A stretch of 64,000 bases of DNA from positions 124,001 to 188,000 of the forward strand of contig NZ_FQYR01000002.1 of the NCBI RefSeq assembly GCF_900141815.1, written 5' to 3'. The stretch's first letter is position 1, and each line of letters begins with the position of its first letter. The position numbers were made by a program, and so were the translations under genes. This document shows positions 1,979 through 44,544 of the stretch, in pieces. This stretch comes from Rubritalea squalenifaciens DSM 18772. Its GTDB lineage: Bacteria > Verrucomicrobiota > Verrucomicrobiia > Verrucomicrobiales > Akkermansiaceae. The notes beneath the pieces are model-generated. The model saw nothing but the letters and a program-made list of their open reading frames with translations, searched no databases and had not been told where the DNA came from.

Positions 1979-3244
1979 CTATTCCTCGATGAGGTTGATC
2001 GCCTCCAGGCTATCCGAGTTGTATTTCACCCGTCCCCCTTTGAGCTCCTGCTTGAAGATGTGCTCAAACAGCATCTCTTTCCACTGCTCGGGTGTTTCCA
2101 AGGGAATCTTTACCCGCATCGGAGGATAAACCACAGGGATGTTTGGTACCCCATGTGGATTCTCCGCTTTTGCCTTCTTCTGAACCTTCTCTACGAGTCT
2201 ATCCCTATAGAGCTTATGATAACTCTCAGGAGCCAAGCCATGAAACGCCCTTCCGATTTGCCACTGATAATAGCCTTTTCCTCCCGGCTCCACCACTGTC
2301 ATGGCATCCCCTAGCACGCGTGTTCTGTGTTCTGTCACACCAGGTGTAGCCACTTTGCTATAAATCATAACCCGCATATCGCGGGTGGCGTCATCCACGG
2401 CCATACGAATATAATGATCCCGTGAAATTTCTCCTCTGCGAGAATCCGGATAGACCTCCTCCGCTTTGAGCTGAGCGACTTCCTTTTTGATAAGCATCGT
2501 TGGTGGATTTCCAGAGTTCACCAATTCCTGGTACTTGGCAGCGGCAGCCTTTCTCATGCGCTCGCGGTGATAAGATCTGATTTTCTCTTCATTCAGTCCG
2601 CCCCACTTATGTTCCTTATAAAAGGCGAGCGCCTCCTTCATCGCCGCCAAAGTCACGGCCGGCGACTGCAATGCTGGTAGAATATCAAACACTTTTCCCT
2701 GTGGAGTACAGAAGTAGATGGCAATCTCTCCATTGGCAGTGCCGGTAAAGCTACGCCCTTCCCCCAAATCAAAGGTCACGATTCTAACCGGGGAGACACT
2801 CTCCCAGACGGGGACATACTCAGTTTCCAAAAGCTTGGCGATACGGCTGTCGGAGAACGTCACGGCTCTCGCTAGTTTACCGTTCGCTCAGCAATACTCT
2901 TCGTCCAGCTTGCCAAACAGGTGCAGCACTAATAACGGCTTGTCCTCATTGATCGCCTCTTTGACCGAACGCTTCCAGACTACCTTCGTCTGGCTTCCCC
3001 ACTGTCCGGTGATCTTGCCCAGGGCATGGCGCGCACGCGCCTTGAGGCGAGGATCTTCATCTCCCGCCCATTTCTGCAGACTGGGGATAATCGCTTTCCC
3101 CTCGGTCACGCAGGAATCCACTGCCGCCGTAGCCACCTCCTTTTCAGCGGAAGACAGACCTTCCTTGATAGATAAATAATCTTCCGCCATCGCTGACCAA
3201 GAAATCAGCAGGCAGCCACCCAGAGTAAGTAGTGATCGTTTCAT
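1979..3244 (-). CDS. Candidate selenoprotein: exported thioredoxin-fold protein with Cys-Sec motif
   Basis: One reading frame of 422 codons interrupted only by a UGA at codon 119 (2888-2890). Reading it as selenocysteine gives a 421-residue protein. The ATG at 3244 is chosen because it opens a signal peptide (MKRSLLTLGGCLLISWSAMA). Residues about 35-85 look like a short helical or HEAT-like region. Then comes the strand KPLLVLHLFG, followed by EEYC-U-ANGKLAR at the place where thioredoxin folds carry their redox motif. The remainder (IAKLLETEYVPVW, GEIAIYFCTPQGKVF) continues the fold in the same frame, so this is not two genes. A SECIS-like hairpin lies 23 bases after the UGA. No selenocysteine machinery lies in the window. 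If UGA is a true stop, the gene would be a pseudogene split at 2888. Confidence 0.75.
2853..2870 (-). promoter_or_regulatory. SECIS-like hairpin after UGA codon 119
   Basis: On the minus strand GAGAGC (2870-2865) pairs with GTTCTC (2858-2853), 6 bp, closing the loop CGTGAC. The loop begins 23 bases after the UGA and has G as its second base. Bacterial SECIS elements are expected 16-37 bases downstream with a G in the first two loop positions. The element lies within the coding sequence, as in formate dehydrogenase genes. Confidence 0.5.
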
Positions 3245-3350
3245 AGCAACTTGAGTAAATTTCGACACTTAAGCATGGCAGATACAAGTCACAGGCACAA
3301 GTAGGCGCTGGGCGGATTTACCAAGCTTTTACAAAGAGCGCACTGGCCAA

Positions 3351-43683: not shown

Positions 43684-44544
43684 ATGAAAGCAATGTGTGT
43701 ACTCATGTCGTTATGCATGGCCATGACGACATTGGCAGGCTTCAAAATTCCCAGCGGTGTCTATGAGCACACCGAAATGAAAGAAGCGATTGCCGAGGCA
43801 AAGGAGGAAAAACTTCCTCTGGTATTTATCTATACGGACAAAGGGACTACCTGAGGACCTTGTGCAGTGGCCAGTGTGGCCGCTTTCAAGAAGTTCAAAC
43901 GCAAGGGAGTCATGGTATATCTCCCGAGAAAGGCAAAAGATCGCTATGATTACATCTCGCCAGTGACTTATCGTGCACTTGAATCCCCTGAAGCAGGAAA
44001 TACCTATCCCTTTGCTGTTGCTTGCTCGCCCAACCAATACGAGGTCTTCGGTATATACAGCAATAAAGTTCTCTCGGACGAGTCGGCACTGAGAAAAGCT
44101 GCCGGTGGGCTTAAAGAAAAGATGGAAGCCCACAACCCGGATGCTCAGCCAAAGGGTGAAATTTTCATGAGGCTCAAAGACAGCAGCAACTACTACAAAG
44201 GCACCTTCAAGAAAGCTACCGACAAAGCTATCATCGTGACCATCGGTGGCAAGGAACGCAGCTACCCGCTGAATGTTCTCACCAAAGGTTGTGGTGATTT
44301 TGCCAACAGCCTCAAATCCTCATCAGGATCCGAGGAAAGCACCGACACGCAAGAAGGTTCGGACAAGGAATTGGCCGTGGAAGACTGGGCCAGCGCCAAG
44401 GGAGACAAAACCATCTCTGGTAAATTTGTGAGCCTCGTTGGTGACAAACTGACCATTGAGAAGTCTGACGGCAAGACTCTCAGCTTCGACATCAAGTTCC
44501 TCTCCGAGGAGAGCCAGAAGCGCGCAAAAGAACTCGCTCAATAA
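43684..44544 (+). CDS. Candidate selenoprotein: thioredoxin-fold UGPC protein with SHD1-like C-terminus
   Basis: 287 codons with a single in-frame UGA at codon 57 (43852-43854). Reading it as selenocysteine gives U57-G-P-C60, the thioredoxin CGPC motif with selenocysteine in the attacking position, directly after strand LPLVFIYTDKG. The fold continues in the same frame (VAAFKKFKRKGVMVYL, and YPFAVACSP with the cis-proline region). A signal-like N-terminus (MKAMCVLMSLCMAMTTLAG) suggests export. Residues about 150-195 and 225-286 are beta-rich; the latter (WASAKGDKTISGKFVSLVGDKLTIEKSDGKTL) resembles the SHD1 domain. A SECIS-like hairpin follows the UGA by 18 bases. A terminator at 44586 ends the gene. 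Confidence 0.8.
43866..43884 (+). promoter_or_regulatory. SECIS-like hairpin after UGA codon 57
   Basis: AGTGGCC (43866-43872) pairs with GGCCGCT (43878-43884), 7 bp with one G-U, closing loop AGTGT. The loop begins 18 bases after the UGA and has G in second position, inside the accepted window of 16-37 bases. The loop shares GTG with the hairpin at 2853-2870. Confidence 0.55.

Follow-up and report, generated by a model that had tools for sequence, protein, structure and literature searches.

The described systems closest to the gene treated here are bacterial selenoproteins with a thioredoxin-type active site. In Table 1 of PMC13188914, bacterial selenocysteine (Sec)-thioredoxin is assigned to PF00085 and has the motif UxxC, where U is Sec. 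The same table lists a thiol:disulfide interchange selenoprotein (PF13098), also with UxxC, and the Trx7/PDZ domain-containing selenoprotein NF041199, whose motif is CxxU. The gene in question lies at positions 43684-44544 of the forward strand in a stretch of 64,000 nucleotides (nt), hereafter the window, from Rubritalea squalenifaciens DSM 18772 (contig NZ_FQYR01000002.1, positions 124,001 to 188,000). Seemingly broken by a stop codon, it very probably encodes a thioredoxin-like protein that contains selenium and is exported. From its sequence and that of its homologues, the product is judged to be a thioredoxin-fold redox protein with Sec at residue 57, with a probability of about 0.88.

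The window protein shares with bacterial Sec-thioredoxin the thioredoxin fold and the placement of Sec at the first position of CxxC. It differs in having no PF00085 match up to E 10, in being probably exported, and in being apparently joined to two SHD1-like barrels. NF041199 likewise joins a Thioredoxin_7-type domain to another domain, and PF13899 is found in 5 of 24 members of the present family (E up to 1, best 1.9e-4). However, the motif there is CxxU rather than UxxC, and NF041199 matches one of the 24 members, at E 0.096. The thiol:disulfide interchange selenoprotein has UxxC in common with the window protein, but PF13098 occurs neither in the window protein nor among the best 25 of the 31 families listed for members, and SHD1-like barrels are found instead. 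A likeness to envelope thioredoxin domains is seen in the best VIA-align match, 3f9u, a C-terminal domain from an exported protein related to cytochrome c biogenesis. The C-terminal barrels resemble SHD1 (SLA1 homology domain 1, PF03983; structure 2hbp) in fold and, weakly, in sequence. The role that SHD1 has in yeast Sla1 is presumably not shared by the barrels here.

The 119-family selenoprotein table of PMC13188914 (May 2026) holds no SHD1-joined family by name, domain, or motif, representative sequences not being part of the comparison. The covered text of that paper makes no mention of SHD1, Verrucomicrobi, Akkermansia, PF13899, Thioredoxin_7, or UGPC. Of the nine new selenoprotein families reported with deep-Sep (PMC12013277), none is described as thioredoxin-like or SHD1 in the passages covered. 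The family was also not found in the other selenoprotein catalogues examined, Table 1 of PMC9312934 and passages of PMC5029168. A literature search, with subscription papers and GenBank homologue annotations outside its scope, gave no paper that pairs an SHD1 domain with a selenoprotein or with thioredoxin. Searches on UGPC with selenocysteine, and on selenoproteome with Verrucomicrobiota, returned only papers on other bacteria or other matters among the matches listed. NCBIfam gave weak matches only, to one to three of 24 rows. We rate the family as new within a known kind of protein, with an unusual combination of domains; it is absent from the catalogues examined when compared by name, domain, and motif.

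Reading frame and conservation of the UGA codon

The frame at 43684-44544 (+) is composed of 286 codons with a single internal TGA, codon 57 at 43852-43854, followed by 229 sense codons and TAA. This TGA occupies the first cysteine (Cys) position of a CGPC motif, in the context TDKGTT-U-GPC-AVAS. The initial annotation had noted both this placement and the open frame beyond it, and both are borne out by the reading of the frame. Under the standard code, the same DNA gives a 56-codon stub and an open reading frame (ORF) of 225 amino acids (aa) from the GTG at 43867. The ORF list of the window has a minimum of 100 aa, below which the stub falls, and in this frame it holds the 225-aa ORF only. 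Since the standard-code reading shows a stub and a truncated ORF, the family is easily missed.

Homologues were searched for in 98 genomes (that of the window and those of relatives), and then by profile in 386 genomes of the order. The first search gave near full-length homologues, each having this one TGA, in other genera (G058, G034, and G064; 37-38% identity), and the second matched well over 100 places. Across 134 distinct homologous domains, the codon at the aligned site is TGA in 89, TGC in 29, TGT in 5, and another sense codon in 11 remote members; it is never TAA or TAG. Codons were read by profile alignment with frames uncut through every stop, and the counts are the same with frames cut at TAA and TAG. 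In a 24-row alignment, the column is invariably U or C. The earlier argument that a TGA would hardly fall there by chance is upheld by these counts.

Members with TGA carry the motifs UGPC (31 of the 89), UVDC (9), UPTC (8), UVAC (7), UGPS (5), and UGPA (4), with the rest fewer. The 34 Cys rows have CPLA (9), CPLC (6), CPKC (6), CPKT (3), and others one or two times each. Such Cys forms had been suggested as a check on the Sec reading, and they make up 34 of the 134 domains, from genomes without detected selA. Resequencing had been named as another check, with TGC or TGT in place of TGA as the damaging outcome. The TGA is not a sequencing error because the same TGA is present in members from 64 genomes, including Rubritalea marina DSM 17716 and Roseibacillus ishigakijimensis KCTC 12986. 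Other in-frame stops in the aligned spans are limited to five upstream TGAs, described below, and a pair of TAGs, both in the copy L131.

Selenocysteine machinery

Neither an Rfam scan at gathering scores nor a tRNA scan gave a hit in the window; the machinery lies elsewhere in the genome. There, selA (506.8 bits), selB (300.1 bits), and selD (378.3 bits) are all present. A tRNA-SeC with anticodon tca scores 50.8 bits against a cut-off of 47 and is also found by ARAGORN. The selD gene (L263, G000:C3:915205-916134) has its own TGA within MASCGG-U-ASKLDP, as in Sec-type SelD. The initial annotation had made its reading depend on Sec genes and a Sec tRNA elsewhere in the genome, and the full set was recovered.

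The presence of selA also follows the codon across genomes. Classified members occur in 102 genomes; this tally covers the loci of the homologue searches plus two sets of regions (16 and 80), with weaker or unlisted matches outside it. Presence of selA was scored in 117 genomes (E at most 1e-60); for G001 and G012 it was taken from a separate selA search. Genomes with the TGA form have selA in 59 of 64 cases, and genomes with only Cys forms in 0 of 30. Eight genomes have remote members only, and one of these (G249) has selA. The five TGA-form genomes without selA at this threshold are G268, G334, G008, G063, and G383. Among them, tRNA-Sec is over the cut-off in G268, G383, and G063, and selB is over the cut-off in G063 and G008.

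Hairpin downstream of the UGA

A hairpin resembling a bacterial selenocysteine insertion sequence (bSECIS) lies within the coding region at 43859-43890 (+). In the minimum free energy (MFE) fold of the window sequence, 43866-43873 pairs with 43877-43884 (8 pairs) around a GTG loop at 43874-43876; outside it, a further stem of 4 pairs links 43859-43862 to 43887-43890. The MFE is -14.3 and the folding z is -3.4 relative to 100 dinucleotide shuffles. Between the TGA and the inner 5' arm lie 11 nt, and between the TGA and the apical loop 19 nt. A hairpin of 7 base pairs, 18 bases after the TGA, had been noted earlier; the hairpin is real, and those numbers were slightly off. Published bSECIS limits are a G in the first two loop bases, a spacing of 16-37 nt, and an MFE of at most -7.5 (PMC13188914, section 5). 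The window hairpin falls within these limits, with a spacing of 19 and an MFE of -14.3.

Folding was compared between TGA and Cys members over 42 nt starting 3 nt after the site codon. One of the 89 TGA members had too little downstream DNA and was dropped, leaving 88 TGA members and 34 Cys members. Mean folding z is -1.15 in the TGA members versus +0.15 in the Cys members (Mann-Whitney p 3e-9). The first apical loop has a G at its first or second base in 87 of 88 TGA members and in 19 of 34 Cys members. In group 1 (55 TGA members), the loop codon ends in GT in 54. Group 2 (33 TGA members) is the class defined by AGT at the loop codon, so all its members have AGT. Wherever the loop codon of a TGA member encodes Ser, it is AGT (80/80, of which 33 by the definition of group 2), whereas AGT makes up 13% of the 584 Ser codons in 15 window genes.

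The stem itself is conserved and covaries. In group 1, 89% of cells are paired and the covariation score is 0.37; shuffles have means of 79% and 0.18, and 0 of 200 reach either observed value. Stems slid along the alignment give 22-56% paired and scores of 0.06-0.16, and Cys members give 47% and 0.19. Pair 18-24 is G-C in place of C-G in three group-1 members, and both bases are at third codon positions. The group-2 stem behaves likewise, with 96% paired and a score of 0.34 (shuffles 88% and 0.18).

Domain architecture

The N-terminus (residues 1-19, 43684-43740) is probably a signal peptide, so that the protein would be exported. It has a Lys, a hydrophobic stretch, and LAG, and a low-confidence helix spans residues 2-15 in the model. 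An AlphaFold2 model built with 24 sequences has a predicted local distance difference test score (pLDDT) of 90.3 and a predicted template modelling score (pTM) of 0.70. It is composed of a thioredoxin-like domain and two similar barrels, each with four strands and a helix.

The thioredoxin-fold domain (residues ~23-149, 43750-44130) was matched by VIA-align to 3f9u_A as the best hit (Z 10.4, root-mean-square deviation (rmsd) 3.0, 114 residues), and many thioredoxins match at Z 8.6-10 over residues ~22-149. Foldseek matches include 3fk8, 1sen, and the SHD1 structure 2hbp. The U57-G-P-C60 pair, together with Pro109, invariant in 24 rows, gives the pattern of a thioredoxin active site. Cys60 (43861-43863) is the presumed resolving Cys of UxxC, a role assigned from thioredoxins. 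Pro109 (44008-44010) is at the place where the fold leads one to expect the thioredoxin cis-Pro. No significant thioredoxin match was found for the window protein in Pfam, NCBIfam, or Protein Data Bank (PDB) sequence searches; in the last, Thioredoxin O2 appeared at E 0.9.

Barrel 1 (residues ~159-214, 44158-44325) is tentatively assigned as SHD1-like from the four strands and helix of the model, in the same order as in barrel 2. Barrel 2 (residues ~233-286, 44380-44541) is assigned from the model, the Foldseek match, and hits to PF03983 in 8 of the 24 members (E no higher than 1, best 1.1e-8). For the solved SHD1 structure 2hbp, Foldseek gives a probability of 1.00, an rmsd of 1.4 over 53 columns, and E 4.8e-3, the matched barrel not being specified. 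A PDB sequence search gave the designed barrel 7uwz at E 0.0021 over residues 236-274. The initial annotation had described a C-terminal SHD1-like region. The likeness stands on the 2hbp fold match and on PF03983 in relatives; the window protein itself has no PF03983 match in Pfam up to E 10, and the model has two barrels, not one.

Proposed function and alternative readings

In the mechanism proposed here, SelB and Sec-tRNA(UCA) would read the UGA at 43852 as Sec, aided by the hairpin just downstream. The product would be exported, and its thioredoxin-fold domain would act in the cell envelope. Sec57 would attack and Cys60 would resolve, and disulfides or related oxidized groups would be reduced or isomerized. 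For the two SHD1-like barrels, the likeliest role is binding of partner proteins or envelope structures, which is the least certain step. Taken in full, this envelope-reductase mechanism is somewhat favored.

Several observations weigh against the Sec reading or soften the evidence for it. One genome, G334 (86% complete), has TGA forms with neither selA at threshold nor tRNA-Sec over the cut-off, selB not having been searched there. On a tree of 118 rows, the Sec/Cys label needs only two changes, and there is one independent pair on starred branches; 16 of the 134 rows were left out (11 with other codons, 4 with WC or EC motifs, and 1 without context). Because of these two label changes, the selA association is an agreement and not many independent events, and its Fisher p of 1e-19 is unusable as a probability. 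Relatedness also inflates the hairpin statistics, and the shuffles leave it in. Strict bSECIS limits are passed by 64 of 88 TGA members, and also by 15 of the 34 with Cys and 3 of the 11 with another codon, so the bSECIS rule alone separates weakly. Foldseek of the model gave no PDB match reaching E 0.001, and for the window protein Pfam yields nothing above its cut-off and NCBIfam nothing up to E 10.

The product could be a selenoprotein and yet not a general disulfide reductase, serving instead as a peroxide or metalloid enzyme or a redox sensor on a thioredoxin scaffold. Subfamilies without the resolving Cys (UGPS, UGPA, UGST, and UGPN) favor this, as do those in which another in-frame TGA precedes the site by 3-5 codons. 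U-G-P-C is nevertheless kept in the window member and in 31 of the 89 TGA members in all, and this alternative is considered rather unlikely.

It is very improbable that a suppressor tRNA inserts Cys or Trp at the UGA, or that the codon is a stop with low read-through. The Cys homologues do show that Cys fits the site. However, the same genome has the Sec machinery, a tRNA-SeC (tca), and a selD with its own active-site TGA, while TGA still terminates 2 of the 15 window genes checked. A SECIS-like hairpin also accompanies the TGA form. Still less credible is a pair of proteins, a short exported peptide ending at the UGA and a separate protein from the GTG at 43867. The 225-aa ORF does exist, but the predicted fold and the UxxC/Pro109 pair require both halves, and the Cys homologues run as continuous frames through the site.

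A pseudogene or a miscalled Cys codon, to which the stub and 225-aa ORF of the standard code might point, can be given almost no weight, being contradicted by a TGA shared by 89 of 134 domains in members from 64 genomes, by protein conserved at 37-38% on both sides of it in other genera, and by a conserved, covarying hairpin.

With Sec at residue 57 as the preferred reading, a broader picture can be offered tentatively. The family may be a lineage-specific exported seleno-redox system of Verrucomicrobiales, in which an SHD1-fused thioredoxin-like family has radiated, with several copies in some genomes. It would include UxxC and double-Sec forms as well as others in which the resolving Cys was lost (UGPS, UGPA, and UGST), with the barrels bringing the selenol to particular envelope partners. 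The selenoprotein reading would add to the Verrucomicrobia an SHD1-fused thioredoxin-like family that is probably exported and has candidate double-Sec members. Named strains (Rubritalea marina and Roseibacillus ishigakijimensis) carry the family, so Sec use in the envelope is testable.

Distribution and variant forms

A DNA pattern of UGPC plus hairpin describes 28 of the 88 TGA members. When 84,980 species, each represented by one genome, were screened with this pattern, 33 stretches matched, all from Verrucomicrobia, Verrucomicrobiales, Verrucomicrobiaceae, Akkermansiaceae, Roseibacillus, or Rubritalea. Forms outside the pattern may occur elsewhere. The TGA form is present in both Rubritalea marina DSM 17716 and Roseibacillus ishigakijimensis KCTC 12986. 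In a phylum-wide search of 387 genomes, 30 have a match at E 1e-15, nine of them outside the order. None of these nine has a TGA; eight are without any stop inside the match, and G680 has a TAA in a 151-aa frame. Around the 33 pattern loci and the window gene, no other gene family (ORFs of at least 90 aa) is common to more than 7 of the 34 loci.

Several members depart from the window form. A second in-frame TGA lies 3-5 codons upstream of the conserved one in L028, L133, L160, L163, and L165, which are candidate double-Sec proteins; three of the five have the motif UGST. In the UGPS/UGPA subfamily (L195, L197, L210, L218, L222, L196, L201, and L215), the TGA is kept and the resolving Cys is gone.

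Some genomes encode several paralogues, in tandem or otherwise, e.g., G058:C2 41371-42999, G006:C51 5714-7171, and several contigs of G077. The window's genome has more than 12 further profile matches at E up to 1, mostly to the SHD1-like part only. Examples are G000 C3:1028021-1028176, C2:879713-879871, and C7:92781-92933.

Second read-through frame in the window

Another read-through frame, perhaps the first of the candidate selenoproteins counted in the initial annotation, is found on the reverse strand at 1979-3268, with a TGA at 2888-2890 in the motif EEYC-U-ANGK. Homologues without an internal TGA occur in G063, G075, and G081. Homologues with one internal TGA occur in G006, G033, G067, and G012 (50-60% identity), and weakly in G019. 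This gene likely encodes a second selenoprotein.
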